From positions 3,534,001 to 3,598,000 of the forward strand of contig NZ_CP036291.1 in NCBI RefSeq assembly GCF_007750855.1: a stretch of 64,000 nt of DNA, read 5' to 3'. Numbering within the stretch: position 1 is the stretch's first letter; each line of letters opens with the position of its first letter. Below the pieces are notes generated by a model. The model was not told the origin of the DNA. It worked only from the letters and a program-made list of their open reading frames with translations, and searched no databases. This document shows, piece after piece, positions 15,910 through 61,606 of the stretch. The stretch is from Pirellulimonas nuda (GTDB taxonomy: Bacteria > Planctomycetota > Planctomycetia > Pirellulales > Lacipirellulaceae). A program made the position numbers and the translations under genes.

Positions 15910-16716
15910 AAGCGGGAACGGTTCGCAGCGCCTGACATGTTGGGGGGCCGATCCCCCATTCTGTCCGGCGCGGGTGGCGGCGGCAATCGTCTCGCCCGAC
16001 CGCCCCCTCCCCGAGCCGACGAGTCCGCGGCGAATTTTCGGGTTTCTTGCGGTCCCCACGCGCCGGGATGGCGCCCAGCAGGTAGAGCAAGACGCGACGC
16101 CCCGCAGAGGACGTCGACCCGATCAGGCCGCCCCGGCCCGCGCGGAACGCGACCGGCCGGCCGACCCGGGTCCTTCTCCGACAAGCCCCCCCACACCGAG
16201 CAAGGCCATGAATCATTCGCACACCACGCACCCTCTCCCGCCAGCTCTCTACCACGGCCCGCTGGCCACCGTTGGAGGCGTCTCCCCAAAAAGGCCCGCC
16301 TCGGAGGAGGGCGCCCGGGTCGGGGCAGCGGCCGCCGCGTCGGACCCATCTGCCGCTCGCCGACCGCACGCGATCGAGCGGCAGATGGGTCGCGCCTGCC
16401 GAAAAACGCTCCTCCGCGCCGCATGGACCTGCCTCCAGTTGACGGTTTTGCTGCCGCTGATGCCGGTCATCCTGTTGGCTTGGCTCTGCTACTTCGCGAC
16501 CCGTGGGGGGGAAACCGACCCTTTGCAGAACGACGTCTCGCCGGCCGAGGCGGGCCGCGAGCGGTTCGAGCCCCCGCAGGTGGGCGTGCTCTGAGGAGGG
16601 CGACCCGGCCGCGGGCTGCCCCTCGCCGGTCTCCGGCCGGTCCTCCGCGGCCCGCGGCGTCGCCCAACCGGGCCCGCGGCCGATCCTCGGTTTTCCGTGT
16701 TTTCGGCGGGCGGCTG
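15910..16716. other. Long leader/intergenic stretch without a convincing gene
   Basis: About 800 bp between the divergent sigma-factor and PEP-CTERM genes. A possible short plus-strand frame at 16208-16594 (129 codons from MNHSHTTHPLPP) contains a hydrophobic stretch (LQLTVLLPLMPVILLAWLCYFATRGG) and could encode a small membrane protein, but I cannot decide between coding and non-coding. Confidence 0.3.
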
Positions 16717-16719
16717 GTG

Positions 16720-16731
16720 TTACTATGCGTA
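16720..16731 (+). promoter_or_regulatory. Possible extended -10 promoter element (TGTTACTATG)
   Basis: TACTAT preceded by TG lies about 50 bp before the start of the 16777 gene. The same TACTAT element with upstream TG precedes both NHL/PEP-CTERM genes (46948 and its duplicate near 60551). I found no convincing -35 box. Confidence 0.35.
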
Positions 16732-16776
16732 GCACCGATACGCCCCTTCCCACCACGCAACGCCGACGCCGCAACG

Positions 16777-28499: not shown

Positions 28500-29999
28500 T
28501 CACACTGGGAGCAATTCGCCCGTCGCTACGCCGACGATGATCCTTCGCACCTCGTCCTTGGAGATCCCAAGCCGCGCGGCCATCGCGACGAGCACCGACT
28601 GCTCGCGCACCGAAAGCTTGCCGTCGGCCAACGCCACCGCAACCATCAGGATAAAACCGTCACGGCTGGCGGCATCTGCCGGGGCCGGGTCGCGTTGGGC
28701 CTCGGCGAAGAGTTTTTGCATGCGGGGCTTGGTGATCCCGTGCTTCTTGCCCCAACGCACCAGCAGGCGGTTCTCCCGCTTGCCGAGTCCGTCCCCGACG
28801 GCGAGCTTGATCAGGTTGGAGAACATCCGCTCGTCGCGCGCGGCGGGCAGCGGCACGGTTGGCGTGCCGCTGGCTTGGGCCAGCCGCTCGTGCTGGTAGT
28901 GATCGACGGCTTCTCGGGCGTGGGTCTGGGCCCGCCGGCTGCCGCGGATCAGCCACCAGGCCCCCGCCGCCACCAGCGCCAACGGCGGACCAAGCGCCCA
29001 TGGGTGGTGGACCATCGCCGAGACCGCCACCACCAGCAAAGAGAGGGCTGCCCCCATCAAAACGCTTAATAGCAGCATCCCCCACCGAGCGATCTGGCCG
29101 AGGACCGGCACGTGGTACAGCAGGTTGGAAAACCGCTCCAGCAAGCCGTAGACGCCCAGCACCACCACGGCCGCGCCGCCCAGCCGTGCGAGCCAGGTCT
29201 CCTTGGCAGAACGCGACTTGAGGACGCCGAGCGCGTGCCGCCGATCCCCGTTGACAAGGTGGTGCAGCACGCCGTCGTTCTTCATCAGGTCGGCGGGCAG
29301 GTAACGTTCGTACAGCAGGGCGGACAGGCGCCCAGGGGACACATCGAACTGCTTGCCGCGCGCCCGCCGGCCGTCCATCTTTCCAAAGTAGGTCGCAACG
29401 GGCGCGTTGGGGACGCCCGTGTAGTCCAAACGTTCGTCCCCAAGCCTGGGATGAGCCAGGTTTCCGCGGACCAAGCACGCGCGCGCCTGCAGCAGGCCCG
29501 CCTGTCGGCCCGCCTGGGTAAGCGGGAGGTCGACCCCCGAAATCGGGACTTTGTCATCCACCAGTTGGACGGCGTCTGGATGGACTTCTAGGTCGCCTAC
29601 CAGGTACTTGGTGGGGAAGAGGGCGCCGCCGCGCAGCGTCTGTTTGACGCCCTGGTTGCGAGCGTTGTCTGGGACCGACGGGCCCCAGCTCAGCTTCCAG
29701 TCTGAGTCGCCGCTCTTGTGCCAGGAGCAGACCGATGCGGCCCGGTCGACGCAGAGGTAGCTGGCGAACGGCTTAACGTAGCGCCCCTCGATCGGGACCT
29801 GGGTGTCGACCTCGCCGGTCAGTGAAAAGGTGTCCACCGCGGCGGCGTCCGCCGCCGATTGCACCACCGGCGCGTCGCGGGCCGCCCGGTAGAAATCGAA
29901 CCGCCCCTCGTTCTCCCAGAGCGCCAGCACACCCGCGACGACAATCGCCGAACCGGTCGCGACCACTTCCCACCGACCGTTCGGTCTCTCTCTTGCCAC
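28500..29999 (-). CDS. TMEM43-like membrane protein with C-terminal TerB-like domain
   Basis: The 499-aa protein has an N-terminal helix (VVATGSAIVVAGVLALW), a large soluble region with LTGEVDTQVPIEGRYV and beta-rich text, and three further membrane helices (about residues 270-365: GGAAVVVLGVYGLL; GMLLLSVLMGAALSLLVVAVSAM; LGPPLALVAAGAWWLI). This matches TMEM43 (DUF1625) layout. Residues about 395-499 (LIKLAVGDGLGKRENRLLVRWG...MVAVALADGKLSVREQSVLVAMA) form a TerB-like helical domain with acidic/DGKLSxRE motifs. I chose the GTG at 29999 because a GGAG lies 8-10 nt upstream; the frame is open further to 30176 but looks non-coding. The function of bacterial TMEM43 proteins is unknown; TerB-like domains are linked to metal-binding stress responses. 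Confidence 0.82.
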   Translation of the reverse strand: MARERPNGRWEVVATGSAIVVAGVLALWENEGRFDFYRAARDAPVVQSAADAAAVDTFSLTGEVDTQVPIEGRYVKPFASYLCVDRAASVCSWHKSGDSDWKLSWGPSVPDNARNQGVKQTLRGGALFPTKYLVGDLEVHPDAVQLVDDKVPISGVDLPLTQAGRQAGLLQARACLVRGNLAHPRLGDERLDYTGVPNAPVATYFGKMDGRRARGKQFDVSPGRLSALLYERYLPADLMKNDGVLHHLVNGDRRHALGVLKSRSAKETWLARLGGAAVVVLGVYGLLERFSNLLYHVPVLGQIARWGMLLLSVLMGAALSLLVVAVSAMVHHPWALGPPLALVAAGAWWLIRGSRRAQTHAREAVDHYQHERLAQASGTPTVPLPAARDERMFSNLIKLAVGDGLGKRENRLLVRWGKKHGITKPRMQKLFAEAQRDPAPADAASRDGFILMVAVALADGKLSVREQSVLVAMAARLGISKDEVRRIIVGVATGELLPV

Positions 30000-30339
30000 C
30001 AGGAGGGTCTCCAAGGGGGACGATAAGAGGGTGCGCCTCTTACAATAGGCGATAGGATCGCAACGGCCGAACGCGACCTGTCCGGTCCCATCGGTTGGAT
30101 CGGGCCCCAGCGCCCAACAACCATCGGCCGGGGCGTTGGCTAGTGGGATCGAAGACCAGCCGCATTGTAGACGCACCGGCCGCCGGCGCCATCAACACGG
30201 TCCGACCCCAGGTCGCAGCCCAGCCGCCGCCCGTCGTGCCGCCTGCCAGGCGAACGGGCTGCCTGCCGCTCGCGGTCAGAACCTCGCGAGTCGATGACGA
30301 TCGTCTCGTGCAGGCGAACAGCGTCGCCAGGCTGATCGT

Positions 30340-33659: not shown

Positions 33660-33893
33660 CTACCGCCGCCGCTGCACCCGTCGCCTCGGCGCCGGCCTCG
33701 ACAAGGCCCGCTTCTGCTGCGCGAGCCTGCAACAGGCAAAGACTCCCCCTATCGCGAGCACGACGACCGTCGGCCAGAACGCGGTGGTGAGCAGCACGGA
33801 CAGAACAACGCACGCCCAGAACACAACCGCCCGCGGGGGCGGCCGCGTCCAGAACTCGGGGCGCGAGGCCCCTTGGCTTTCGCTACCCGTCAA
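33660..33893 (-). CDS. Small membrane protein at the end of the Ubl-conjugation locus
   Basis: A TTG start at 33893 is preceded by an AAGGAGG ribosome site six bases upstream, and the gene begins 15 bp after the E1-like gene stops. The 77-aa product has a cytosolic-type N-terminus, a long hydrophobic hairpin (VVFWACVVLSVLLTTAFWPTVVVLAIGGVFA, residues about 24-54) that probably forms two short helices, and a very basic tail (RPAPRRRVQRRR). Unknown family. Position and spacing suggest translation as the last gene of the operon. Confidence 0.65.
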   Translation of the reverse strand: MTGSESQGASRPEFWTRPPPRAVVFWACVVLSVLLTTAFWPTVVVLAIGGVFACCRLAQQKRALSRPAPRRRVQRRR

Positions 33894-33908
33894 GGGTTGC
33901 CTCCTTGG

Positions 33909-34577
33909 CTAAAGGGTTGAAACAGTAAGCTCGCTCGCCAGCAGGCTGAGCGACAGGTCGGCGTCGACCGGCTGCCCTCGCAGCCAGCGGACCAGCTGCG
34001 AGAGCATCAAGCCCGCCGCAATGCTGGCGGCGTAGATCGTCGACCTCGCCGTGCAGGCGCCCGCCTGGGCCTCGCGCTGCGGAAATAGCGATTGGGAGTA
34101 GTGCGCGCGGCTGGCGCCGTCACACGCGGCAAGCACCCGCAGGGTCTCGCCCCGCATCCGCCCGTCGGCCCAGAAGCCGACCAGGCCGCCGCCCCCCCGC
34201 CAGATGGCCGCGCGGGCGTCGATGGAATCGACGCAGCAGAAGGCCGCGTCCCCCAGCCGGGTCGCCGGGCGCCAGCGGTCCTGCACGGCGTCGACGTTGA
34301 CTTCTGGATCGATCGCCAGCACCGCGTCGCGGCAGGCATCCACCTTCCGGCGGCCGATGTCGCCGCGGGCGTACCCCTGGGTGGTCACGTTGCTCGCGTC
34401 GACCTTGTCAAAATCCACCAGCCGCAGCCGGCGCACGCCGAGCGACGCCAGCTGCACCGCGACCTGCCTGCCGACGGCGCCGACGCCGACCACGGAAACA
34501 TCCAGTGCCGCCAGCCTTGCTTGCGGCACCAGCTGCGCCTGCCGCACGAAGCGGTCTTCCTCGGGTTCTGTAAACAT
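33909..34577 (-). CDS. ThiF/E1-like ubiquitin-activating enzyme
   Basis: The 222-aa protein is a compact E1-type adenylating Rossmann enzyme. The ATP loop is GVGAVGR (31-37), the strand-2 acidic pair is VDFDKVD (D55, D57), then [19 protein letters not shown] carries the conserved Arg and Lys, and CCVDSIDAR (114-122) is the strand-5 motif. A Cys in [17 protein letters not shown] corresponds to the C-terminal ThiF region. It lacks the zinc CxxC pairs of MoeB/ThiF. It should adenylate the C-terminus of the Ubl at 36279 and pass it to the E2-like protein. An AAGGAG lies 5 nt before the ATG. Context: between the JAMM peptidase and the small membrane gene. Confidence 0.85.
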
Positions 34578-34595
34578 CGGGCTCCTTGGGCTTGG

Positions 34596-35243
34596 TTAGT
34601 CTGGGGGGCAGCTCCAGAGCGCTTCCGCGGCCTCGGGGTCGATCCCGAACAGCCGCTCACCCAGCCCCTCCAGGTCATCCCAGTCGGGCTCGGGCTCGAC
34701 GCAGGCGGCGTACTGGGCGAGCCACGCGGCGTGGTCGCTGCCAGAAAACGGCTCGTCCCACGCGACCCGCACGGGGAGCCGCTGGCTGGCGCCCGGGCCG
34801 GCGCTGACCCCCAGCCGGGCGTACCAGCTCCCGCCGCGGGCCAGGATCGCCATCACGGCCCAGTCGGCCGGCCCGAACACCCGGGCAAACGTCTCTTCGT
34901 CGGTGCCGCTGGGGTGGGGCGAGGCGCCGGGGTGGGTGTGGAACCAGATCCGGCCGAACTGTTGGGGGCTAAGCCCGGCGTCGGCCTGCTGGTCGAAGTA
35001 GTCTGCCACCGCGGCGTCGTCAAACGCTACGCTCACCGCGCTGCACGCCTGCCGGACCGGCGTTACGTCCCGCACCAAGAGCAGGTCCTGGGGGTCCGAG
35101 ACGCCGAAGCAGCCGATCTCGGTCGGGCCCGCGTCACGCAAGAACCTGAGCTTGGCCCACGCGTGGGGCGTCAGCCGCAGCGACCGCCGCCGCTGCGGCT
35201 GGGGGCGCCTCGTCTTCTGACTCTTTCTCTGCAGTACACGCAT
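34596..35243 (-). CDS. JAMM/MPN (JAB) metallopeptidase, deubiquitinase type
   Basis: The 215-aa protein contains a complete JAMM zinc site: the upstream Glu in TEIGCFG (E42) and HTHPGASPHPSGTD, which fits HxHx7SxxD exactly (H102, H104, S112, D115). Such enzymes cleave ubiquitin-like proteins from targets or trim Ubl precursors. I chose the ATG at 35243 because GGAG lies 7 nt upstream; a GTG three bases earlier is less likely. The gene overlaps the 3' end of the E2-like gene by about 110 bp in another frame, and its stop is 18 bp before the E1-like start. Confidence 0.87.
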   Translation of the reverse strand: MRVLQRKSQKTRRPQPQRRRSLRLTPHAWAKLRFLRDAGPTEIGCFGVSDPQDLLLVRDVTPVRQACSAVSVAFDDAAVADYFDQQADAGLSPQQFGRIWFHTHPGASPHPSGTDEETFARVFGPADWAVMAILARGGSWYARLGVSAGPGASQRLPVRVAWDEPFSGSDHAAWLAQYAACVEPEPDWDDLEGLGERLFGIDPEAAEALWSCPPD

Positions 35244-36159
35244 CACAAACTCCGTCGGTTAGGCATTGGTAGCAGCAGGTCCTCTCGCAGTCGCTACAGG
35301 ATTCCAGACACGCCCGGCAGTGTGGCTCGCCGCAGCCCGAGCACTCCCCGCGGCAGCCGTGGCAGAGGCCCTCGCCGCAGCCCTCGCAGGCGCCCGAGCA
35401 GCCGTCGCACACCTCGGCGTCGCAGCGTCCGCACAGCGACCGGTCCTCGTCGTCGACCAGCACGCCGCAGTCGCTGCAGGGGGTCCCGTGCCAGCGGTCG
35501 AGGTCGACGTAAGCGCTCGACGCGTTGTAGGTCTGCAGGATCTGGCGGACGATCAGCACGTAGTCGTACAGCCGCCCCTCGAGGGCGGCCGCCTGCAGCA
35601 CGGGGCCCCCCTCCCCTTCGCACAGCCGGTCCTCGACGACGTGCGGGTGGGTGACGCTGGCGTTGGACCCCGGGGCGTGCGGCTCCATCGCGATGACCAG
35701 CAGCTGGGGCTGGTCGCCGCCGAGCGTGCTCCAATCGAGCGACAGCAAGAACGGGCCGAGAGCGACCCCCTCGAGCGTGATCGGTCCGGTCGCGACCAGC
35801 AGCCGCCGCTGCGGGAGGTTGATCTCGAGCTGCGGGAACTCTTCGTCGATGGCGAGCAGGTCGCGGTAGAGGCCCCCGAGCGTTGGCGCCTGGCACACCC
35901 GCCGCTCGCGGCACAGGCGCTCGGCCTGTGAGGTGGCCGTGACGGCCAGGTCGCGCAGCGCCCGCTCGAGCCGCGGGCGGAGCCGCCTCGAAGCCGCGCG
36001 GTAGTGATGGCGGCAGGCGTGCCGCATCATGCGCGTGAGCCGCGCGACGGCGTCGAGCGGCAGCGGCTCCGCGGGCAGCGGCAGGACGTCTTGGCGGCGG
36101 GCGTAGGTCTCGGCGATCGCCGAGGCGGCCCGCCACAACATCTTCTGGCGTGGGTTCAT
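35134..36159 (-). CDS. E2-like (UBC-fold) domain fused to a multi-CxxC zinc domain
   Basis: The 341-aa protein has a helical N-terminus (1-90), then a region with UBC/E2 layout (about 92-215): beta-rich LEINLPQRRLLVATGPITLEG, a THPHV turn (170-174), and RLCEGEGG with candidate catalytic Cys180, followed by the helix YDYVLIVRQILQTYN. Residues 228-308 hold ten CxxC motifs (CSDC, CGRC, CDGC, CEGC, CHGC, CSGC, CRAC, CSDC, CYQC, CDAC), a treble-clef or RING-like zinc array. The tail is Ala-rich. The expected role is to accept the Ubl thioester from the E1 and, with the zinc part, select targets (E2-E3 fusion). The E2 assignment is by motif and gene context, not by alignment. Confidence 0.72.
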   Translation of the reverse strand: MNPRQKMLWRAASAIAETYARRQDVLPLPAEPLPLDAVARLTRMMRHACRHHYRAASRRLRPRLERALRDLAVTATSQAERLCRERRVCQAPTLGGLYRDLLAIDEEFPQLEINLPQRRLLVATGPITLEGVALGPFLLSLDWSTLGGDQPQLLVIAMEPHAPGSNASVTHPHVVEDRLCEGEGGPVLQAAALEGRLYDYVLIVRQILQTYNASSAYVDLDRWHGTPCSDCGVLVDDEDRSLCGRCDAEVCDGCSGACEGCGEGLCHGCRGECSGCGEPHCRACLESCSDCERTCCYQCLTDGVCDACTAEKESEDEAPPAAAAAVAAADAPRVGQAQVLA

Positions 36160-36278
36160 CGGATGGCCGCTTCGCGGCGGGGCTGGGGGCTAGGGGCTGG
36201 GTAGGCAGTGGCCAGCAAGCAGGCATCCGTGCCCGCCGCTGACCGCTAATGACTAATACCTAAGACCTAACGCCTTCC

Positions 36279-36497
36279 TTAGGCCCCTTCGATCTTCACC
36301 GGCGTGAAGCTGATGCGGTCCCCTTCTTCGAGGACCTGGTCCGCCGGCGCCGGCAAGCGGTTGACGCGGATCAGGTAGTTCTCGGGCCGCGGGTCGCGGA
36401 CCTGCCGCTCGAACAGCTTGCGGACCGACGTGCCGGGCTCGATGTGCACGTAGTCGGCGAAGCCGGCGCCGTCGTTGTTGATGACGAGGATTTTCAC
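36279..36497 (-). CDS. Small ubiquitin-like beta-grasp protein (MoaD/ThiS-like)
   Basis: The 72-aa protein begins at a GTG (36497) and shows the beta-grasp pattern: strand MKILVINN, strand [10 protein letters not shown], helix VRKLFERQV, strand [10 protein letters not shown], then [18 protein letters not shown]. The C-terminus is EGA rather than the usual GG, so it either conjugates through a single Gly-Ala end, is trimmed by one residue by the JAMM peptidase, or has another role. It is the probable modifier of the locus. It is separated from the E2-like gene by a 120-bp G-rich repeat-like gap. Confidence 0.78.
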
Positions 36498-36614
36498 TAT
36501 TGGACTCGGGGGTTGGGGGATTGCCGCGGACGCGGTGTGTCGCTGCGCGACGGGGCTGGGGACGGGGACGGGGGGCTAGGGGTTGGCGACTGGGAAAGGC
36601 GTCGACTCGGCACC

Positions 36615-36690
36615 CATCACTCATCACTCATCACTCATCACTCATCACTCATCACTCACAACTCACAACTCACAACTCACAACTCACAAC
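36615..36690. repeat. Two-type heptamer tandem array (TCATCAC then TCACAAC)
   Basis: Five TCATCAC units (36621-36655, plus a partial before) run straight into five TCACAAC units (36656-36690). The array fills the gap between the Ubl gene and the next gene upstream, and the last units encode that gene's final residues and stop. Confidence 0.92.
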
Positions 36691-36924
36691 TCCGGCGTAG
36701 CGGGCTTGCCAGGCGTCGTCCCAGTCGAGGTAGCTCTCGTGGGCGATGTCGGCGGCGAGCGGGTTCACATCCTCGAAGTCGTAGGCCTCGTCGAGGACGA
36801 CCTGCGGCTCGGGGTCGTGGCAGACGTCCAGCGGGGCGGCCAGCGAGAAGCCGAGCCGATCGATCGTGCGGCGTGACTCGCCCGTGGCGTGGGAGACGGC
36901 GGACAGCAGCTGGCGGTGGGACAT
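36670..36924 (-). CDS. Hypothetical small acidic protein of the Ubl locus
   Basis: I chose the ATG at 36924 (MSHRQLLSAVSH) because GGAGG lies about 6 nt upstream; an earlier ATG at 36948 lacks such a site. The 84-aa product has a basic N-terminal helix-turn-helix-like segment (LLSAVSHATGESRRTIDRLGF) and an acidic C-terminal half (DEAYDFEDVNPLAADIAHESYLDWDDAW). The last residues (VVSCEL) come from the heptamer array. No family recognised; its place in the operon suggests a partner or target of the Ubl pathway. Confidence 0.6.
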   Translation of the reverse strand: MSHRQLLSAVSHATGESRRTIDRLGFSLAAPLDVCHDPEPQVVLDEAYDFEDVNPLAADIAHESYLDWDDAWQARYAGVVSCEL

Positions 36925-36981
36925 GACGGACCTCCGGTTGGGGAACATGAACAGGGGGAGACTCAGAAGCGATGACGCCGC

Positions 36982-37224
36982 TTAGAGGCGGCTTCGCAGC
37001 AGCCAATCGCGTTCGGCCTGGAGGGCCTCACTTCGATGGGTAAACGGGCCCAAGAGCGGGCCGTCCACAGGAGACAGGTCGGCCAGCCAGCCGCCGAGGG
37101 GGTCGGGCTCGACGTGGCTGGCCCGGGCGATGGAGACGCGGCCCAGAGTGGCCAAGTCGAGCGTCTCGTCGTACAGCGTGGTGATCGTCCCCTGAGGTCC
37201 GACCACCAAGTGCAACGCTTCCAC
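36982..37224 (-). CDS. Hypothetical 80-aa protein, translationally coupled
   Basis: It starts with a GTG whose first G is the last base of the upstream gene's TAG (TAGTG), a typical one-base coupling overlap. The product (MEALHLVVGPQGTITTLYDETLDLATLGRVSIAR...) has alternating beta-strands and one C-terminal helix (HRSEALQAERDWLLRSRL). No family recognised. Position in the Ubl operon is the only functional clue. Confidence 0.6.
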   Translation of the reverse strand: MEALHLVVGPQGTITTLYDETLDLATLGRVSIARASHVEPDPLGGWLADLSPVDGPLLGPFTHRSEALQAERDWLLRSRL

Positions 37225-38180
37225 TAAGAGCCACGCCGCATCACGCGGCGGCGGGGACGGTCGACCAGCAGCGACTCCAGGGACTGGGCGACCCGCCCCA
37301 ACCCCTCGGCCGCCTGCTCGCGGAGCGAAGTGTGGGTCCGCAGCCCCTCGGGCCGCACGCCGGCCAGCACGGCCTCGGCCTCTTCGACCAGCTCATCCAG
37401 CTCGCCAGAAGTGCTGAGCCGCAGGCAGCGGAACCGCTCGAAGAACGCCTGCAGGTTCTCGACCGCCGAGTCGCGGAACACCTTCGGCTTGCCGTCGGCC
37501 TGGCCCTCCAGCCGCTCGGCCAGGTGGCTCACCAGCCGCTGCAGCTCTTCGCCAAACGCCTGCTCGGCCAGCGCGACCGCTTCTTCGAAGCGTGCCCGCG
37601 TGCGCTCGCACTCCCGCTGGTACAGCTCGGGTGACAAACGACGCAGGTACTCAGGCGGCTCGACCGATGGAAAGTCCCACTCGACGGCGAACAGCCCCGC
37701 CAGGCGCTCCGGGTAGTCGCCCGACTCAAACAGTTCTCCTAGGCGGCGGCGGGCCGAGTCCCGCAGCTCGCCATAGACCTCGTCCAGCTCCTGCACCGCT
37801 TCACGCAGCTCTTCGCGGTAGCCTTCGAACCGATGCTGCAGCGTCTCGACATCGCCGCGACGCACCAGCCGGACCCCCGGCTCGGGGAACGGCAGCGAGA
37901 CCCCCTTCCAGTAGGCGACCGCTTGGCTGCGGACCGCGGAAACGCCGCGGTACTTGGGGTGCCGGGTGTCGAGCAGCTTCTTGCCGGCCGACAGAGAGTC
38001 GCCGGCGGCGCCGAACGCCTCGGCCGCCAGCGCCTTCTGGTCGGCCGAGAGGGTCTTCTTGGCGCCGAACCAGGTGAACGACAATCGTACCGCGGCCGTC
38101 TCCAGACGCAGCCGCTCTGGGGGCGAGGGAGGGGGCGCCTCGACGTGGTTGGGAGGCGGGGCTTCGAGTAGTACAGACAT
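37224..38180 (-). CDS. DUF3150-like coiled-coil protein
   Basis: The 318-aa protein begins at the ATG at 38180 with GGAG 6 nt upstream. A Pro-rich start (EAPPPNHVEAPPPSPPE) leads to LSFTWFGAKKTLSADQK and KKLLDTRHPKYRGVSAVRSQAVAYW, then long charged helices (YREELREAVQELDEVYGELRDSARRRL; RARFEEAVALAEQAFGEELQRLVSHLAERLEG). The layout resembles DUF3150 proteins of plasmids and integrative elements; this is from memory of the family pattern. It is the first intact gene of the minus-strand Ubl locus and probably a structural or substrate component. Confidence 0.7.
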   Translation of the reverse strand: MSVLLEAPPPNHVEAPPPSPPERLRLETAAVRLSFTWFGAKKTLSADQKALAAEAFGAAGDSLSAGKKLLDTRHPKYRGVSAVRSQAVAYWKGVSLPFPEPGVRLVRRGDVETLQHRFEGYREELREAVQELDEVYGELRDSARRRLGELFESGDYPERLAGLFAVEWDFPSVEPPEYLRRLSPELYQRECERTRARFEEAVALAEQAFGEELQRLVSHLAERLEGQADGKPKVFRDSAVENLQAFFERFRCLRLSTSGELDELVEEAEAVLAGVRPEGLRTHTSLREQAAEGLGRVAQSLESLLVDRPRRRVMRRGS

Positions 38181-38266: not shown

Positions 38267-38491
38267 TCAGGGCGTCAGCCCGCGACGTTCCAAGAAGCTG
38301 GCGAGCTCCATGCAGACTTCCGCTGACGCCCACTGCTTGTGGCAGTCCCAGTGGTGCTCTCCCGCGTCGTCGGAGTCACCCTGGAGCTGCTGGATGGCTT
38401 CCCACTGATCGAGATTGAAGATGGCGTTTAAGCACCCGCCCGGCGGCGGATTGCCGCCCGCACGATCCCAGAAAAGGCGGCCGCCGACGCA
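38267..38491 (-). pseudogene. 5'-truncated gene fragment at the Ubl locus boundary
   Basis: The frame is open from 38491 down to the TGA at 38267 and looks protein-coding (FNLDQWEAIQQLQGDSDDAGEHHWDCHKQWASAEVCMELASFLERRGLTP), but no start codon is available. Upstream it abuts the PIN-domain remnant on the other strand. It is likely the 3' end of a further locus gene cut off by the accessory region. No family recognised. Confidence 0.5.
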
Positions 38492-38938: not shown

Positions 38939-39161
38939 AACCTGCAGCGGTGGACATCTCTTCCCTCAGATCCGGCACCGGCCAAATTGCCGCTGATGGA
39001 CCAGCCGACGTGCGTGCTGGCCGGCGCCAACTCGCAGCGGTGTCCCGACCCGGCTGACACCGCCCGCAGTTCGGCATCGAACTTGGCCATGCCGGCTGAT
39101 GCGATCGCGGTCCGTTGGCCATTCGGCACTCCGACGGAGGAGAGCTGCACCGCCGCAGGTT
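38939..39161 (+). repeat. 223-bp palindromic repeat, copy A
   Basis: An imperfect palindrome with four core sites: outer left AACCTGCAGCGGTG at 38939, inner left AACTCGCAGCGGTG at 39029, and their inverted partners ending at 39071 and 39161 (GTT). Spacing is 90-43-90. It lies 3' of the toxin-antitoxin remnant. Confidence 0.9.
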
Positions 39162-39296
39162 CGAGGATGGCGTCCGAGCGGGAGGTGATACACCTAAGCG
39201 ACCGTACGGTCCGCTCGATATGCAGCGGTGTAGGGACCTCAGGAGCGTCGAGGCGATCCAAGGGCACTTGACCAAGCCGCCTAACAAATGGCCGCT

Positions 39297-40811
39297 TAGC
39301 AGCCCGTTGAAAAATACCACTCCCCCGACCAACCCCTTGGCGCTAAACTGCGTCGCCGACGAAAGCGTGACTTGAGCAGGAGCGAAGCGATGGGGATGGG
39401 AAGGCGAGAGCGGGATCGGCAGGACGTGTTGTTCGTGACGGCAGAGCAGCTGCCCAAGAGTCAGGGGCACGCGTTCTACAAGCGGCTCAATAGGCTGCTT
39501 TCCGAGGCGGGCTTCGACCGCGAGGTCGAGAAGCTGTGCGAGCCGTACTACCAGCCGACCGGCACGCGTGGGCGGCCGTCGGTCCCGCCGGGAGTCTACT
39601 TCCGGATGTTGATGGTGGGTTACTTCGAGGGGATCGGTTCACAGCGGGGCATCGCGTGGCGGTGCGCCGACAGCCTCAGCCTGCGGGAGTTCCTGGGCGT
39701 TCCGCTGACCGAGGCGACCCCCGATCACTCGACGCTCAGCCGGGTCCGCGACCGCCTGCCGCTGGAAGTCCACCAGGAAGTGTTCCGACTGGTGCTGCAA
39801 CTGGCGGCGCAGCAGGGGCTGCTAAAAGGCAAGACGGTAGCGGTCGATTCGACTACCCTTGAAGCCGATGCGGCGATGAAGAGTCCGCCTTCGGCGGATG
39901 CGGCGCGACACAGGCGAGGACTGGAAGGCGTACGTCATTGGCTTGATGAAGAAGGAAGGAGTGATCGAAAAAGAAGACGAGCCGAGCGACGACGAGGTCC
40001 GCCGCTTCGATAAGAAGCGGAAGAACAAGAAGGTCTCGAACGCCGAGTGGGTCAGCACGACCGACCCGAGCGCACGGATCACCAAGCTCAAGGACGGCCG
40101 CACGCATTTGGCGTACAAGGCGGAGCACGTGGTCGATATCGATACGGAGCTGATCTTGGCGGCAGAGGTCTATCACGGCGACCACAGCGACACGAAGACC
40201 CTCTGCGACAGTGTGATGGAGGCGCAGACGCACCTGTCAGAGGCTGGGCTGGAAGCGCAGATCGAAGAAGCGGTTGCCGACAAGGGCTACCACGCTGCCG
40301 AGCAGCTGGAACTGGTCACGTCGGTCGGGGTGCGGACGTATGTGCCGGAGCCCAAGCGCCGCGGCGAGTCGCGTCTGAGCGCCAAGCCAGTCGAGCAGCA
40401 GCGCGCGGTGAAGGGTAACCGCCGGCGGACCAAGACCGCCAAGAACAAACGGCTCCAGCGGCTGAGGAGTGAACGGGTCGAGCGCAGCTTCGCCCACGTG
40501 TGCGACACCGGCGGGTCACGCCGCACATGGCTGCGGGGGATCGACAAGGTGAGGAAGCGGTTACTGACGTCGGCGCTGGTGCGGAACCTGGGCCTGGTAA
40601 TGCGGAAGCTGTTCGGGATCGGCACGCCGAGGGGCCTGCAGGGCGAAGGTGGCTCCGCCGGGCTTATGCAGCTCGCCTGGCTTCTCATCGCGGCGATGAA
40701 GAACTTGTGGGACACACATGCTCGCCTGGGAGCCCGGCCTACAGAGTCACGCCTCCAACTGCTCACAGTTGGCGGGCCGCAGGAGTATGCGCTTAGATCA
40801 ACGGGCTGCTA
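39297..40811 (+). mobile_element. IS1182-like insertion sequence, 1515 bp
   Basis: It is bounded by a perfect 14-bp inverted repeat, TAGCAGCCCGTTGA (39297-39310) and its complement (40798-40811). It encodes one DDE transposase split by a frameshift. Flanks GCCGCT and GCCGCC could be a decayed 6-bp target duplication. A degenerate relative lies at 30340-30880. The right-hand terminal repeat also carries the transposase stop codon. Confidence 0.85.
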
Positions 40812-40812
40812 G
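39372..40812 (+). pseudogene. DDE transposase (DUF772/IS1182-like), frameshifted
   Basis: The first frame (39372-40013) has the N-terminal DUF772-type part (YQPTGTRGRPSVPPGVYFRMLMVGYFEGIGSQ, SLSLREFLG, HSTLSRVRDRLP) and the first catalytic Asp in AVDSTTLEADAAMKS. The second frame (from about 39898 to the TAG at 40812) continues as VRRDTGEDWKAYV-type text (here MRRDTGEDWKAYV) and holds DKGYHAAEQLE (second Asp) and RSERVERSFAHVCDTGG (Glu). The shift is near 39880-39900, where a small GC palindrome TCCGCCTTCGGCGGA sits. All three catalytic residues are present but in different frames, so it is either inactivated or needs recoding. Confidence 0.8.
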
Positions 40813-42473: not shown

Positions 42474-42637
42474 CGTTATTCCTTTAGCAACAGAACAATA
42501 AATGTACAGAAGCAATTCTGCCTAACCCAATATGCAGACACGCTCAGTGTCGCCGTAAATCCGGTCGTCCGCAAGCTTTTTCGCCTGACGATCCGACCGG
42601 TCCGCTGCATATGCAGAAACGGCCTGGATGCTCAGCC

Positions 42638-42860
42638 AAGTCGCAGCGGTGGAAATCGCTTCGTTCCGATCAGGCACCGGCCAAGTTGCCCGAAATGCAT
42701 CAGTTGATGCGCGTACTGCCCGGCGCCAACTCGCAGCGGTGTCCCGACCCGGCTGACACCGCCCGCAGTTCGGCATCGAGCTTGGCCGTGCTGGCTGATG
42801 CGATCGCGGTCAGTTGTCGAGTCGGCACTCCGACGGAGGAGAGCTGCACCGCCGCGGGTT
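42638..42860 (+). repeat. 223-bp palindromic repeat, copy B
   Basis: Same length and orientation as copy A. Outer left site AAGTCGCAGCGGTG at 42638, central AACTCGCAGCGGTGTC / GACACCGCCCGCAGTT, and 3' end GCACCGCCGCGGGTT at 42860. Confidence 0.9.
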
Positions 42861-42940
42861 CAAGGAGGGCCCGAAACCGCGAGAATGGCCCAAGTTCGAG
42901 GGGTGGCTGCGTCGCAGAACCAGCCCAGAACGTCCCCACG

Positions 42941-46307: not shown

Positions 46308-46602
46308 GGCGGACAGCACTTCGATCAGATCTGGCTCCGCCGAAGTCGCAGCGAGTTGTCCACTCACGGCGCGTTGGACAGTCGCCATATCCGCAGAAGT
46401 CTTCCTTCGGCAACGACACTGCTGCACTTCTGCCGTCGCTCCCAGGCGATCAGGCTGATGCGCCTACGGTCAGCTGGGCAGTCGGCAACCCGGCGGAAGA
46501 GAGCTGCACCGACGCGGGTTGCGCCGGATCATAGACGGCGTCGGATGCGGCATCCGCCCAGCGAGGGTGAGTCCCGCACACCCGCAAGCACCCCAGACTA
46601 CT

Positions 46603-47011: not shown

Positions 47012-47986
47012 ATGACATTACCTGCCACCGTGACGAAACTGAAAAGATCGCTTTCCGAGAACGCACGTGAAATTCGAGCGATCTTGGTCGTGGCTTGCCT
47101 CACTCTTGCGTGCGGCGTGGCGCGAAGTGCATCGCTACCTTTGCCGCATTATATCGTAAGTGACTACCACGGAGACCAGATACGACGATATGACGCCGTC
47201 ACTGGGAACTACATAGACACGCTAGCCGAGATTCCGAACGCTGCCGAAATGGTGGTCGGCCCTGACGGCTTTCTCTATGTGAGCGATTTTCAAGGACGGA
47301 GGATTCACAGAGTAAATATGGATACAGGTGCATCAACGGTCTTCATCGAGGGAGGAACTCTCGCGAATCCTAGAGGCATCATCTTCGGTCCGAATGGGAA
47401 CCTATTCGCCCGAGGATCCGATCAGATTAATGAGTACGATAGCGGTACCGGCGCTTTCCTTGGAGCATTCACTTCAGGCCCGGCAATGGAGGCGCCGATT
47501 GCCTTTCGCTTTGGACCCGACGGGACCCTATACGTCGTTCGAGGCTACTCTCCAGGCGACCACACGGTAGTGAAGTTTGATTCTACTGGTCAATACGTCG
47601 CGGAGTTCGGCGCCGCTTACATCCACAAGCCTCAGAATATTGTGCTTGGGCCAGATGGCGATCTATATGTTGCCAACCAGCAGTCGCCCACAGATCTGGA
47701 CATTGTGCAATTCGATGGACGGACGGGCGCGTTCATTAGGACCGTCGTTAGCGATCCTCTAATGAGCAATCCACTTGGGCTCTACTTTCGCAATGATGGC
47801 AGCCTGCTCGTGGCCAGCGGTGATCAAAGGATTCGAACGTACGACGTTCAGACAGGTGCTTATACCGGTGATTTCGTCAATGATCCACAACTGGTGTTTG
47901 CGTCAAGCCTTTTACTAGTCCCAGAACCGAGCGGCGTCGCGATTCTTCTCATTGGATTGGGTGTGGTGATCAGACGTCGCCGTTAG
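47012..47986 (+). CDS. NHL/SMP-30-type beta-propeller protein with PEP-CTERM tail (copy 1)
   Basis: The 324-aa protein has a signal peptide (IRAILVVACLTLACGVARSAS), then about five propeller blades of the GPDGxLYVxxxxxxxIxRxxxxTG type (VVGPDGFLYVSDFQGRRIHRV; IFGPNGNLFARG; RFGPDGTLYVVRG; VLGPDGDLYVANQ) and a VPEPSGVAILLIGLGVVIRRRR sorting tail. It is probably exported and anchored to the envelope, binding a ligand through the propeller. It is nearly identical to the copy at 60614 (few residue changes such as R/L, Y/F and I/F). GC content is markedly lower than the host core. The next gene is 200 bp downstream on the same strand. Confidence 0.92.
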   Translation: MTLPATVTKLKRSLSENAREIRAILVVACLTLACGVARSASLPLPHYIVSDYHGDQIRRYDAVTGNYIDTLAEIPNAAEMVVGPDGFLYVSDFQGRRIHRVNMDTGASTVFIEGGTLANPRGIIFGPNGNLFARGSDQINEYDSGTGAFLGAFTSGPAMEAPIAFRFGPDGTLYVVRGYSPGDHTVVKFDSTGQYVAEFGAAYIHKPQNIVLGPDGDLYVANQQSPTDLDIVQFDGRTGAFIRTVVSDPLMSNPLGLYFRNDGSLLVASGDQRIRTYDVQTGAYTGDFVNDPQLVFASSLLLVPEPSGVAILLIGLGVVIRRRR

Positions 47987-48183
47987 ATTTGGGCGCCATT
48001 GTTGGCCTGCATCGGATTCATCGACCGCGGGCCCGAACGACATTCTGCCGGGCGCCTTTGTCGCCCGCCAAGTCGGTGCAGGCTTCGGCGTTTCACGCCG
48101 TCGTTGAACAGCGTAGGCTGGGACCATCCTGACCGCTCCAGAAGAAGAATGGTCGCATCTGTAGAATCTCTGGCGAAGGCCGT

Positions 48184-48447
48184 ATGTCTTTCTTCTCAAA
48201 ACCGCCGAGGATTCCTCCCCAGAAGGCGATCGGTATCGGGGTGGTTTGCATATCCCTTGGGACACTACTGGGCTCGAATCCAGTTTCGGGGGTGCTGATC
48301 GGTGGAGGGATCGGAGCCGTCGCGATGGGATTCTGGGACTTCCTCCGTCTTAGCTGTATGACTTGGTTTCGCACATCACGGTCGGCTAAGCTGTGGAAAG
48401 AAACGGAAAGCTGTAATCACGCAGAGGCCGCATCTGAAGACTTGTAG
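48184..48447 (+). CDS. Small membrane protein (short form, 87 aa)
   Basis: MSFFSKPPRIPPQKAIGIGVVCISLGTLLGS... has two predicted membrane segments (residues 15-30 and 34-54, a Gly-rich GVLIGGGIGAVAMGFWDF) and a charged tail. In the duplicate at 62121 the same codon is TAT instead of TAG, so that product is 121 aa. No family recognised. Confidence 0.7.
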   Translation: MSFFSKPPRIPPQKAIGIGVVCISLGTLLGSNPVSGVLIGGGIGAVAMGFWDFLRLSCMTWFRTSRSAKLWKETESCNHAEAASEDL

Positions 48448-48596
48448 CGTCGGCGACCAGTCGGACCGTTGAGATTCGTATGGGAGATCGATTGGCAAGT
48501 GACGCCGCTCGGTAATTCCAACGTTTACAGCCTGGTCAGCTGCCGGTAGAAACTGCTTCGGCATCTTCGTTCGTCGCAGTCTTGGATGGCCCCAGA

Positions 48597-48821
48597 AACT
48601 GCGGCCGGTTGGACATCACCTCCTTCAGATTCGGCTCGGACCAAGCTGCCGGAAACGGACCAGTCGACCCGCGTGCGGGCCAGCATCAACTCGCAGCGGT
48701 GTGCCGACCCGGCACACACCGCCCGCAGGTCGGAATCGACCTCGATCGTGCTGGCTGATGCGCCCTCGGTCAGCTAGCCGGTCGGCACCCCGAAGGAGGT
48801 GAGCTGCACCGACGCGGGGTT
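48597..48821 (+). repeat. 225-bp palindromic repeat, copy D
   Basis: Outer left AACTGCGGCCGGTTGG at 48597, centre AACTCGCAGCGGTGTG / CACACACCGCCCGCAGGT, 3' end GCACCGACGCGGGGTT at 48821. It separates the NHL/membrane pair from the GNAT gene. Confidence 0.9.
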
Positions 48822-48987
48822 GGCGACCTCCCGAAAGTGCAGAGTGGTTTCAGGACCGACGCAGTTTGGCGGGAGCGCTTCGCCACCAAGAGCGACGCCC
48901 CCTACCGCGGAGGCTTCTTTCTGATGAACCTAGTGGCTACCCGGAGTGTCATGCGGTTCCTCGACAACTCAAATCAGGAGGAACGCG

Positions 48988-49422
48988 ATGATCGTTAGAA
49001 AATACGAAAGCCGGGATTTGGAAGCTGTTCTTTCTTCATGGGAGCAGGCAGCGCGGCTGGCCCACCCATTTTTAGCCGAGGAGTTTCTGGCTCAAGAACG
49101 CAAGAATCTTCCAGAGTTGTATTTGCCTAACGCAGAAACATGGGTGGCCGAGATTGACGGAGCCGCTGTGGGTTTTGTGGCCCTTATTGGCAACGAGATC
49201 GGCGGATTATTCTTGCTTCCTTCTCACCACGGGAAAGGGATTGGCCGAGCACTCGTTGACAAAGCCAGGGAAGTGCGTGGCACGCTTGAAGTCGAGGTGT
49301 TCTCAAGGAACTCAATAGGCCGACGCTTCTACGCAAATTGCGGCTTCGAAGAGATCGGCGAGAGCATCCACGAGCCGACGAGGCAGAAGGTGCTCCGCCT
49401 ACGATGTTCTGCCGGCGATTAG
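48988..49422 (+). CDS. GNAT family N-acetyltransferase (copy 1)
   Basis: The 144-aa protein shows GNAT architecture: beta1 IVRKYESRDLEAV, beta4 WVAEIDGAAVGFVALIGNEIGGLFLLP, and the acetyl-CoA pyrophosphate loop motif A HHGKGIGRALVDKA (residues 80-94), ending with FYANCGFEEIGE. The ATG at 48988 has AGGAGG 6 nt upstream; an in-frame ATG at 48946 lacks one. The acceptor substrate is unknown. It is alone between palindromes D and E and near-identical to 62925-63359. Confidence 0.93.
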   Translation: MIVRKYESRDLEAVLSSWEQAARLAHPFLAEEFLAQERKNLPELYLPNAETWVAEIDGAAVGFVALIGNEIGGLFLLPSHHGKGIGRALVDKAREVRGTLEVEVFSRNSIGRRFYANCGFEEIGESIHEPTRQKVLRLRCSAGD

Positions 49423-49479: not shown

Positions 49480-52400
49480 TTAGAAGTTACCCACCAGAGG
49501 CTCCAAACCTGCCTCGGCCTCATCGCAGCCTGTTCGAATGTCCTCGAGACTGCTGTTGGTGGAGATCACTTCCCTCAGATCCGGCTCCGGCCAAGCTGTC
49601 TCGGAGATGGCCCAGTCGACGCGCGTGCAGCCCAGCACGAACTCGCAGCGGTGTCCTGCCGCGTCTTGCACCGCCCGCAGGTAGCCATCGACCTTGGCCG
49701 TGCTGCCTGTTGCGCCCACGCTCCGTTGGCCAGTCGGCACTCCGAGGGAGGTGAGCTGCACCTCCGCGAGTTGCGCCCGACGGGAACTCGCCGCGGATGG
49801 TCCAGCCGCCTTCAGTTCCACCGCCATTTTCTGTACCGCGGCTACTGCTATCAGCAACAGTAGACCAGCGGCCGGTTCGGGCACCGATGTCAATAATGCC
49901 GGGGCGGTTGCGCCGAAGTTGGCCACCCACACGTCGTAGTCGCCCTGAGAGAACGCTACCCCGAGACCGTCTCGCCAGACCGTATAGTCCGCTGCATTGA
50001 CGACGCCGTCAGCGTTGTAGTCGCCGGCGAGACCGCCCGTCGCCTGCAACAGGAGGCTCGTGCCGGTCACGACGAGGTTGAACTGGCTCGCCGACGGCCC
50101 GACCAAGGCCAGGCCCTGATCGACGAGGCTTGTGGCGGTCAGCACCTCGAACTGTTGACCCGCCGCCGGGGTGAAGTCGCCGGCCAACGCGACGCTGAGC
50201 AGCCCGTCGATCGTGGCCGCGCCGCCGACGGCGACCGTGTCGAACTGGTCGGGGCCTTCGATTCCTAAGATCAGCGCCGATGTTGCCGACATTTCAAGAT
50301 CGTCGCCGAAGATATTCGATCCGAGCAGCGTCGCGGCGCCCCCCGGCCCGTTCACCAAGTCACCGTTGACCGTGCTGTTGATCAGGTTGATGTCGCCGTT
50401 GTTGGTGACGCCCCCCGCGAAGCTCAGCACGGCGTTGATCGCGTTCAGCTCGCCATCGTTCACAAGGCCGCCGGAGGTGACGTCGATTGTCATGCCGCTG
50501 GTGACGTCGACCGTCTCGTCTGCGGCGATCGTAAGGTCGCCGCCGGTCACCTCGAGCACGCCGCTGGAGAGAATCAATTCGCCTGGGTTGACGATCTGGC
50601 CGGCCGACAGAGTACCGCCCGCCAGGACGAGTGGCGCCTCGACGGTGGCGGCGCCGTCGATCGTGAAAGATCGATTTGCGGAGAGCGGCGTCGCGACGTC
50701 GAGTTCGGCCAGCCGAACGGCGTTGAGTGTCTGGTCGCTGCGGAGACGGATCGATCCGCTGTTGAACTCAACGCCGCCCGTGCCGGTCACGGGAAGATCG
50801 GCCGCGTCAACCGCCCCGCCGTCGAGCACGAGAGCACCGCCGCTCGTGACGGTGATCGTCTCGTCGCTCACCAGCGCCATGTCCGCGTCGAGCGTTACGA
50901 CGCCCGGCAGCGGCCGGTCGATCGCGGTCTGGGAGTTGGTGATCGTGATCGCCGACAGCAGGTGGATCGTGCCACCTGTCCACGTGACTGGGCTCAGGTA
51001 CTGGGTGCTAACGGAGCGGTCGATGGCGTTCGCCTTGAGCAGGCCGCCGGTGATCAACAGCTCGGCGGAGTTCGCGAGCGGCCGAACGTTGCCGGGGGTG
51101 TCGAGCGTGCCGCCGGCGATGTGCAGCGTGGCGTTGCTGCTGTAGGTGACGCCACTAGTGCCGGCGACGCTACCGTTCGCAGCAATCCGAAGCGTGCCGC
51201 CATCGGCGACGACTTCTGTGGGCCCGGTGTAGTCGCTGTCTCCGGAAAGCACTTGGGTTCCGGCTAGACGCTTCACGAAGTTCCCAGCACCCGTGATCGC
51301 TCCGGCGAAGTCAAAGACCCCCGAAGACGGTTCCACCGCGAAGCCGGAGCCGGCGCCCGTGACGACGGTTCCCGTGCCGGTTGTGCCGCCGGTGGCGTCG
51401 CCGTTGACGTTGTTTGCCACGACGAGGGTCGCCCCTGCGGCGATGAAGGTCGGGGTTCTTGGCAGGCCCGAAGTCCCCGCGAGTTCTAGCGTCCCCCCGT
51501 CGATGCGGGTGGGGCCGGTGTAGTCGTGCTGGGTAGACTGGTCGAAGACGATCGTCCCCGCTCCCTGCTTGGTGTAGCCCCCGGTGCCGGTGAGGTCGGC
51601 GCTGAAGGTGCGCGAGCCGCTGTCGATCCGGTCGGTGAACGTCCCGCCGGCGATCCGCACCGTGGTTGCGTTGTTCGTGCTGACGATCTGCCCGCCCGCC
51701 GAGTTGTTGAGGCTGGTGAACTCCCAGGTCCCGCTGCCGCCGAGCTCGAGCGTGTCGTCGGCGCCCTGGAGGGTGACGTCGTCGAAGCTCTTGCTGCCGC
51801 CCTGCAGTTGCACCACGCCTGCTCCGCCGATTCCGATACTCAGCGGGCCGGTGAACGTGCTTGGCGAGTTGCTGGCGTTGGTGACGCGGATCGTCCCGGA
51901 GCGGAAGTTGATCACGCCACCTGGCGACTTGCTCAGGTTGCTTGCGGCTAGGTAGCCGCCGTCGAGCGTGAACTCGCCCGCGTTATTCACCTGGAACGCG
52001 CCGGCGTTGCTGGTCGTTGTGCCGATCGATCCGGACAGCTCCAGGCGCCCACTAGCGACGGTGATCGAGCCGTCCAAATCGGGGCTGGACCCTGAGACGA
52101 CCCACTTGCCGGCGCCCTCTTTGACGACGCTGGTGACGGCTGCGCCGGCCCCGGGGCTGATCGTGCCGGCGAGGGTGTTGTCGAGCGTGCTGACGCCGCC
52201 GAGGCGGAGGAACTGTCCGTTGACCGGGTTGGTGACGGGGCCGGTGAGCACCAGCGCCCCGGTCCCGGACGCCTCAATCACGCCGCTGTCGTTGTTGTTG
52301 CCGGACAACCGGATCGCGCGGTCGCTCGTGTGTCCAGAACCGGTGTAGCGGAGTGCGGCGCGATCCGTTCCCCCGCCGTCGGTGAGCCCTAGGAGGATGG

Positions 52401-61588: not shown

Positions 61589-61606
61589 ATTTGGGCGCCA
61601 TTGTTG

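Follow-up and report, generated by a model that had tools for sequence, protein, structure and literature searches.

In the 64,000-nucleotide stretch of DNA analysed here (hereafter, the window), which covers positions 3534001-3598000 of the 6.6-Mb single-contig genome of Pirellulimonas nuda, eight open reading frames lie side by side on the minus strand at 33660-38180. All of them were found at the place and on the strand given in the original prediction, which had read the locus, from its letters, as an operon for ubiquitin-like protein conjugation. Four of the frames make up what we call the core and encode a ThiS-like modifier, an E2-like protein with a putative zinc array, a JAMM peptidase and a single-domain ThiF-type E1, while the others encode accessory proteins. 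The core features are the following, in window coordinates:

36279-36497, minus strand: ubiquitin-like modifier (Ubl), 72 amino acids, ThiS-type, with the end KIEGA (assigned from Pfam and family alignments)
35134-36159, minus strand: E2-like protein, 341 amino acids (structure model, fold searches, alignments)
35620-35622, minus strand: codon of the candidate catalytic Cys180, in HPHVVEDRLCEG
35236-35478, minus strand: putative zinc array, C228 to C308, inside the E2 gene (CxxC spacing; weak structural-profile matches)
34596-35246, minus strand: JAMM/JAB metallopeptidase (E43 and the H103xH105x7S113xxD116 motif; PF14464)
33909-34577, minus strand: E1-like adenylating enzyme with one ThiF domain, 222 amino acids (PF00899)

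Taken together, the core seems equipped to tag proteins with a small protein and to remove the tag again, a conjugation chemistry that follows from the protein families involved. The one-strand order Ubl-E2-JAMM-E1 is kept in 78 of the 78 loci in which all four genes were detected by hidden Markov models (HMMs), both in Planctomycetota and in ten viral contigs, and this conservation of the core order is more than chance. The set comprised 106 loci, with the relatives' genes called by our own script, and the 28 with at least one gene undetected were not counted; about 20 of these lie at contig ends, and eight more (L030, L039, L064, L066, L099, L100, L106 and L118, where L numbers denote individual loci) lie inside their contigs or represent HMM misses. 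The E2 and JAMM frames share 113 bases (35134-35246), and such overlaps, which suggest coupled translation, are also seen in relatives. When the eight operon proteins were scanned against Pfam, only the E1 rose over its cut-off, the JAMM falling slightly under and the remaining proteins having no match over cut-off; in the corresponding NCBIfam scan, no model reached its cut-off.

The E1 matches the ThiF domain (PF00899) at E=3.3e-26 and carries both the GVGAVGR and the VDFDKVD segments by which it had originally been recognised. Against profiles of PDB structures it matches PaaA (4.5e-16) and also MccB, MoeB and ThiF. In the initial alignments of the core proteins, which held 14 to 16 sequences each, the E1 invariants over 14 sequences are RFxRQ, GxGxxGR, D57, N63, Q67, K78, D117 and a candidate catalytic C175, while the Arg of the N-x-x-R-Q motif, present in PaaA, is Thr or Ser in all 14. 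The JAMM motif, HTHPGASPHPSGTD, corresponds to H103xH105x7S113xxD116 and is joined by E43; the exact HxHx7SxxD that had been claimed for it is indeed there and, together with the Glu, is invariant in 14 of 14 sequences. Its match to PF14464 (Prok-JAB; E=3.5e-5, 24.1 bits) lies just under the cut-off of 25, and the Rpn11 profile is matched weakly (E=0.092).

Taken alone, the window Ubl gives weak Pfam matches (Ub-Mut7C 0.018, ThiS 0.041), and a sequence-profile search of solved structures with it returned nothing at E<=1. At the level of the family, which was aligned as the window protein plus 49 of 67 Ubls, 31 of the 50 members match ThiS at E<=0.01, seven match Ub-Mut7C and four match TGS, the best ThiS match being 1.5e-7. 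Because of these matches, the beta-grasp fold proposed for the 72-residue protein is well supported by sequence. The EGA end, also part of the original prediction, is real and conserved: KIEGA closes 16 of 16 sequences in the initial Ubl alignment, and a GA motif is present in 81 of 86 Ubl reads examined, with the Ubls of L103 and L129 having GG and a tail instead. Among the 81 that bear GA, 18 stop at the motif (six of them this genome's copies) and 63 continue for 1-135 residues, as in the phage Ubl of L136 with its 135 residues past KGA; these counts include near-identical rows, and some of the longest tails may reflect ends that were misread. Since 63 of 81 precursors carry extra residues, a protease step seems needed, and the JAMM, as the candidate for it, may mature the Ubl precursors.

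The E2-like protein consists of N-terminal helices (about 1-92), a part resembling the ubiquitin-conjugating (UBC) domain (about 93-225) and a Cys-rich zinc array (about 226-310). An alignment of the window protein with 60 of 73 E2s was used for an AlphaFold model, built from these 61 sequences (predicted local distance difference test, pLDDT, 91.8; predicted template modelling score, pTM, 0.73). In VIA-align, UBC proteins or ubiquitin E2 variants (UEV) fill 42 of the 50 rows listed, with Z of 6.8-7.8 over 117-130 residues at 3.3-4.3 A; the remaining eight rows concern mostly the N-terminal helices, and residues 93-225 align with Ube2N 4-139. Eight of the ten top Foldseek matches are likewise E2s, at E of 0.31-0.69 (best overall E, 0.17). 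All 61 aligned E2s have Cys180 together with H171, P172 and G182, the Cys ladder is for the most part conserved with them, and the site HP[H/N]..CxG occurs in 73 of 73 length-filtered E2s, in 72 of them with a single spacing. Because one family fills the VIA-align list down to rank 50 (Z 6.8) and the site is found in 73 of 73, a UBC fold is the best reading of this protein, short of proof; in this sense, the predicted structure around Cys180 does resemble UBC/UEV proteins as had been expected, with moderate strength.

The E2-fused zinc array is real and is conserved across the family. In the window it comprises ten CxxC pairs, with spacing mostly alternating between x4 and x3; ten pairs are found in 38 of 73 E2s, with a range of 7-17, as counted over whole proteins. 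The solved chain closest to it by profile is that of MID1 (2ffw, E=0.0013), and zf-B_box is matched in 3 of 61 E2 members; these weak matches point to an array that may be B-box- or treble-clef-like. In a viral-model search the E2 gave three matches at E<=0.001, the lower rows including a phage protein named amidoligase, and we suspect the array to be the source of these matches. A conserved-looking tail of the E2 (xVGQAxVxA) was discarded as a feature of the protein, since it arises where the start of the JAMM gene is read in the other frame; the E2s of L037, L040 and L041 stop before it. On the viral contig L132, two different E2-zinc proteins (8797-9987 and 12069-13418) flank the JAMM and E1 genes, and both have HPN instead of HPH.

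Could the same four proteins serve sulfur transfer rather than conjugation? Under such an explanation, the Ubl would carry sulfur in the making of a cofactor or natural product, like ThiS or MoaD, with the JAMM and the E2-like protein as partners in the pathway. The Ubl is indeed nearest to ThiS, and the E1 profile is nearest to PaaA, MccB, MoeB and ThiF. It is hard to reconcile with this, however, that an E2-like protein with an HPxx..C site accompanies the system in 73 of 73 length-filtered cases, that no cofactor-pathway gene was noticed among the recurrent neighbour clusters scanned (a subset of the neighbours), and that the context is one of phages and transposons, as described below. We consider the sulfur-carrier explanation scarcely probable.

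The system is patchily distributed. The E2 was found in 9 of 59 genomes searched, this one included. Of 392 genomes of the phylum, in a search that scored five candidates per genome, 26 match the E2 at 1e-6; in 14, again including this one, the match is strong and full-length, and in the other 12 it is array-only or divergent. A JAMM-pattern scan of species genomes gave 163 relatives, the best 80 of which include 76 with planctomycete names, the other four being records labelled Hydrogenedentota, Actinomycetes, Chloroflexota and 'bacterium'; the scan patterns came from an alignment of this genome's relatives, so that distant hosts could be missed. Among viral contigs (IMG/VR), an E2-alignment search gave nothing, and with the JAMM alignment, used instead, 12 loci were confirmed out of 17 stretches. 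HMMs detect all four core genes in 10 of these 12, L127 and L128 being cut at contig ends. Using tblastn, the window JAMM and E2 found no match among 50,697 named phage or 72,556 plasmid records, nor did the phage JAMM of L129 among the named phage records; because no named phage record matched, phage carriage is read from the IMG/VR contigs alone. Terminase models match in 9 of the 12 viral records (phrog_2 in 6 and phrog_38 in 5, one match being weak at 1.1e-5), and in L129 a terminase large subunit with an intein-like insert (16230-19277) lies within the same 20 kb as the cassette. L136 is a 172-kb viral contig with genes for nicotinamide phosphoribosyltransferase, PRPP synthetase and thymidylate synthase near the cassette.

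On chromosomes, recombinase or TniB/TniQ genes lie near 24 of 46 loci of at least 15 kb, vs none of 20 random 20-kb stretches from two genomes. Of 94 chromosomal loci, 24 have large serine recombinases, seven have TniB and TniQ, and four and six have tyrosine integrases of two groups; genes of L025 are integrase-like by eye. A Ku-domain protein family recurs near the core in L059, L060, L121, L077, L090 and L107 (PF02735 in L077), five of these six loci also having a TnsA-type nuclease-like protein, as judged by eye, with TniB and TniQ near L059, L060 and L121. In a tree of E1s from 93 of the 106 loci, rooted at the midpoint, a group of 69 (support 99/99) holds every row with the accessory genes c8 or c9; outside it fall 8 of 10 phage rows and 16 Phycisphaerae-type rows, with phage rows L130 and L132 inside; several phage branches are long and their placement is unsure.

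In a rival explanation, the same chemistry would serve the mobile element itself, phages and integrative elements using it to remodel replication proteins of the host or their own, with the chromosomal copies being residents of such elements; PRTRC-type plasmid loci may likewise remodel replication proteins. Two sets of viral neighbours were covered (96 of 100 and 108 of 129). In the first, drawn from nine viral loci, replication genes take the lead, the biggest families being primase/helicase, polynucleotide kinase, DnaB, SSB, exonuclease and Sak4. What is more, none of the accessory genes tested accompanies the core in the deep phage lineages, recombinase or TniB/TniQ genes are frequent neighbours, and DUF2958 and GHKL-type ATPase families recur next to Phycisphaerae-type loci. 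On the other hand, this genome has seven chromosomal copies, with a constrained modifier and c8 and with none of the tested recombinase or TniB/TniQ models matching nearby, all of which suggests a use to the cell. A role of this kind in replication is, in our opinion, possible but doubtful.

The seven copies, as counted by their E2s, include one that is partial. When the window was compared with 20 kb around each of the other copies, with short dispersed repeats set aside, nucleotide similarity was limited to the cassette, from about 33.2/33.5 to 38.2/38.4 kb, or to part of it, and the E1s of all seven fall on one side of a branch with a support of 100/100. The pairwise ratios of nonsynonymous to synonymous divergence (dN/dS) among the copies are 0-0.10 for the Ubl, 0.07-0.11 for c8, 0.16-0.35 for the E1, 0.10-0.55 for the JAMM and 0.23-1.04 for the E2; the modifier, in other words, is nearly fixed among them. 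In the trio formed by the window, L025 and L026, the dS of the E2 (0.02-0.04) is so far below that of the E1 and JAMM (0.13-0.15) that gene conversion is suggested. In L027, L028 and L029 it is the E2 that has the highest dN, above E1 and JAMM, and in the two pairs of these that were computed the array is 72-80% identical vs 94-95% for the UBC part. Rapid change of the E2 and its array thus gives a mixed picture, holding for L027-L029 and not for the trio or for the window vs L027 or L029; the comparisons involve small numbers, and the end of the E2 overlaps the JAMM frame. Copies can also break: L030 is without the Ubl and the E2 start, and L175 (11747-16195, near 3.72 Mb and near L030) contains fragments of AAA, c8 and a Ubl ending in KVEGA, a shattered cassette. 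A family of dispersed repeats, with pieces of about 70-385 bases that are 78-87% alike, occurs in the window (38944-39171, 42487-42871, 46453-46520, 48610-48818, 49558-49772, 62547-62755 and 63499-63722) and also in L025, L026 and L030.

Around the core, and upstream of it, lie the accessory genes and two further features:

33660-33893, minus strand: small membrane-type protein, 77 amino acids, with one hydrophobic stretch by eye
36670-36948, minus strand: small protein c4, 84 or 92 amino acids (start 36924 or 36948), recurrent in relatives
36982-37224, minus strand: small protein c7, 80 amino acids, which travels with c8
37224-38180, minus strand: c8, 318 amino acids, N-terminal strands and long helices in the model
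38270-38392, minus strand: remnant (3' end) of the gene c12 (tblastn, best 61.5% over 39 amino acids, E=3e-12)
39297-40812, plus strand: insertion sequence (IS)-like element with overlapping transposase-like frames (transposase named by eye), outside the system

Among the loci scanned, the membrane gene is seen solely beside this genome's seven copies, and c4 is present in 33 of the 39 Planctomycetia-type loci whose upstream sequence extends to 7.5 kb or more. Short tandem repeats (GTGAGTT and GATGAGT units, by eye) occupy 36612-36700, that is, the 3' end of c4 and the gap before the Ubl gene. The gene for c8 stands where it had been predicted, and only its label has proved weak. Namely, it had been called DUF3150-like, but PF11348 did not reach its cut-off, the window protein has no match at E<=1 and there is none at the loci of this genome; a single DUF3150 match (E=0.0046) appeared when 66 of 118 accessory proteins, 11 c8 members among them, were scanned, the matching protein not being named in the output. 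The c8 model, from an alignment of the window protein plus 22 of 24 c8 sequences, has a pLDDT of 82.8 and a pTM of 0.75; its fold search gave helical-bundle matches only, with no clear solved fold, and a sequence-profile search of solved structures gave none at E<=1.

In relatives and in L025 and L026, two other copies in this genome, the usual upstream order was read as c5, c11, c10, sometimes c16, c9, sometimes c12, and then c8, c7, c4, Ubl, E2, JAMM and E1. Here c5 is lipoprotein-like and c16 TOPRIM-like (both by eye), c11 is DUF1257-like, c10 matches DUF2997 (1.9e-14) and c9 is an AAA+ protein (PF00004, 9e-27), which the phage family phrog_8638 covers almost end to end (5e-82). The DUF1257 model matched 14 times, with a best of 3.5e-6, in the 66-protein accessory scan, which contained 18 c11 members, and gave nothing at E<=0.1 against this genome. 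Cyanobacterial genes for DUF2997 and DUF1257 (ycf35) are listed as clustering with the ferredoxin gene fed7 (PMC4284462). Upstream sequence of 7.5 kb or more was available for 46 loci of this genome or of Planctomycetia type, a group to which loci outside the tree, such as L100 with its Phycisphaerales name, were assigned by default; 22 of them have c8, AAA+ and DUF2997, 20 have none of the three and 4 have c8 only. Where the upstream sequence was long enough, the 8 Phycisphaerae-type and the 7 deep phage loci have none of the three.

The window belongs to the four loci with c8 only, and its c12 is a remnant; to judge by its sequence, what was once a longer operon has been shortened in the window copy. 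The eight genes of the predicted span, 33660-38180, are thus all there, while 38180 does not hold as the original end, the c12 remnant lying just beyond it. Upstream of the truncated end lies the IS-like element, a 98.3% identical copy of which (L173, 3328-4833) stands beside an orphan AAA block, and because of this copy the element has probably moved recently. The genome has two such AAA/DUF2997/DUF1257 blocks (L173, 8889-11167; L174, 8784-10918), and no Ubl core lies in the 20 kb read for them; they are 97.4% alike over 4 kb and have common downstream genes of no assigned function. L173 also carries a serine recombinase.

Is the window copy then a decaying, inactive left-over of a mobile cassette? 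Its loss of the upstream operon, the c12 remnant and the nearby IS-like element would fit this, as would the visibly broken state of L030 and L175. Against it, all eight window frames are open and full-length vs the nearest copies, and the modifier and c8 are strongly constrained, which makes decay the least probable of the explanations considered here. The upstream block bears on a further explanation, in which the tag would mark proteins for the upstream AAA+ ATPase in a planctomycete protein-quality system, similar to ubiquitin and the proteasome. That c8, AAA+ and DUF2997 occur together in 22 of 46 loci, with DUF1257 recurring in the accessory scan, speaks in favour of such a coupling, but 20 of the same 46 loci are without c8, AAA and DUF2997, the two blocks just described have no Ubl core in the 20 kb read, and the E2 is absent from most genomes of the phylum that were searched. 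For this reason, we regard a quality-control system as highly unlikely.

We favour, with a probability of roughly 0.52, the reading that the operon is a conjugation cassette of planctomycete mobile elements and tailed phages, most likely used in conflict. Under this reading, the JAMM would trim the modifier precursor to its ...KIEGA end, the E1, probably a homodimer like ThiF/MoeB, would adenylate the C-terminus of the modifier and hand it, perhaps via C175, to Cys180 of the E2, whose fused zinc array would act as a built-in substrate-binding or E3-like part, and the JAMM would also take the tag off. Mobile elements and tailed phages would carry the cassette, and proteins of competitor phages or elements would be tagged in conflict; in Planctomycetia, the AAA+/DUF1257/DUF2997/c8 block would have joined upstream. 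Since the outer part of this block has been lost in the window, its copy would keep the tagging core and perhaps not the full output. Of all this, the gene content and order, the conserved sites, the number of copies, the mobility context and the constraint acting on the modifier are observed, whereas the chemistry, the target and the conflict role are inferred. The conflict role is favoured, with modest confidence, because conflict systems are typically patchy in distribution, grow in copy number, exchange modules and travel with phages and transposons; a role in phage defence is likewise no more than a possibility. A more specific form, in which the cassette is a weapon of mobile elements of Planctomycetota (tailed phages, TniB/TniQ transposons and recombinase elements) and is amplified on a host chromosome into paralogues that share one frozen modifier while their E2/zinc parts diverge towards different targets, is put forward only tentatively.

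That said, a number of observations weigh against this reading. As regards the fold, the E2 model has no Foldseek match at E<=0.001, its similarity to UBC is moderate (the best VIA-align Z is 7.8, and a Z below 8 can reflect merely a common arrangement) and Pfam E2 models match none of the 61 members at E<=0.05. As regards mobility, the HMMs behind the neighbourhood comparison derive from the very loci tested, which biases the comparison in favour of these loci, and they have no match near the seven copies of this genome; the terminase models also match control genomes (phrog_2 in 11 of 14 and phrog_38 in 6 of 14), which may, however, hold prophages. As regards divergence, in the trio the dN of the E1 (0.033-0.048) exceeds that of the E2 (0.019-0.038), and between the window and L027 or L029 the UBC part, at 62-64% identity, has changed more than the array, at 67-69%. 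Finally, PADLOC gave nothing beyond generic matches to E1, JAB and AAA and stray weak ones to SspC (0.082) and GajA (0.0098), and the prominence of replication genes near the viral loci fits a role in replication or takeover as well as one in conflict.

Elsewhere in the window, a group of genes occurs twice, about 13.6 kb apart (47141-49422 and 60743-63359; clusters c22-c24 and part of c25), and 28500-30176 encodes a protein with TMEM43-like (PF07787, 3.2e-12) and weak TerB-like regions.

If the favoured reading is true, a four-gene cascade with an E2-fused zinc array is carried by tailed phages and stands beside transposon and recombinase genes in planctomycetes. Together with the seven copies that one genome keeps around an almost frozen modifier, it would provide a naturally occurring series of E2-zinc fusions in which to study the beginnings of substrate choice (the E3 role), as well as a phage-borne cascade in which to test whether it serves attack or takeover and not defence. 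In the open-access literature we recognised no description of the present operon, and neither the E2-fused array, the EGA end, the AAA/DUF1257/DUF2997 partners nor the carriage by phages and transposons was found there.

As to its place among known systems, the adjacent genes for a beta-grasp Ubl, a ThiF-type E1, a Cys-bearing E2-like protein and a JAMM are those that define bacterial Ubl operons in general. Burroughs et al. (2011) reportedly proposed bacterial RING/treble-clef zinc domains as E3s in company with E1, E2, JAB and Ubl. The PRTRC system likewise has a ThiF protein, an E2-like protein, a JAB and a small Ubl, on mobile elements; membership in it was rejected, the only match being a weak one of the E1 (3.6e-6, 26.5 bits vs a cut-off of 144.75; NCBIfam TIGR03736 and relatives), with no other PRTRC model among the NCBIfam matches of the window proteins. 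In Bub operons and in Cap2/Cap3 of type II CBASS (cyclic oligonucleotide-based antiphage signalling system), E1 and E2 are fused, whereas in the present system they are separate, and no CD-NTase gene, which belongs to type II CBASS, was noticed among the recurrent neighbours scanned, a subset of the neighbours. What is shared is the use of E1, E2 and JAB for conjugation in known or putative immune operons (PMC13373217). Operons of this kind have been known since Iyer et al. 2006 (PMC1779556), whose type 6d shares with the present system, in one gene group, a separate small Ubl with a conserved C-terminal glycine, an E2-like protein, a JAB, an E1-like protein and a helical protein. The type 6d E2 is described as being without the usual His and having a His downstream instead, and the JAB of this type as having an N-terminal JAB-N domain (PMC1779556); the present system has an E2 with HP[HN]..C and a fused zinc array, and AAA/DUF1257/DUF2997 partners. 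A further relative in gene content is BilABCD, listed among immune pathways (PMC13373217), the four genes of which are a Ubl, an E2, a Ubl-maturing JAB/JAMM and an E1 (PMC11354881). Membership was rejected here too, since the double-Ubl BilA and the large two-part E1 are missing and the only match is a generic one to BilD (1e-7). Namely, the Ubl domain is doubled in BilA, and BilD pairs an active adenylation domain with an inactive one (PMC11354881), whereas the present system has a single Ubl of 72 residues, a single adenylation domain of 222 residues and a zinc array on its E2.

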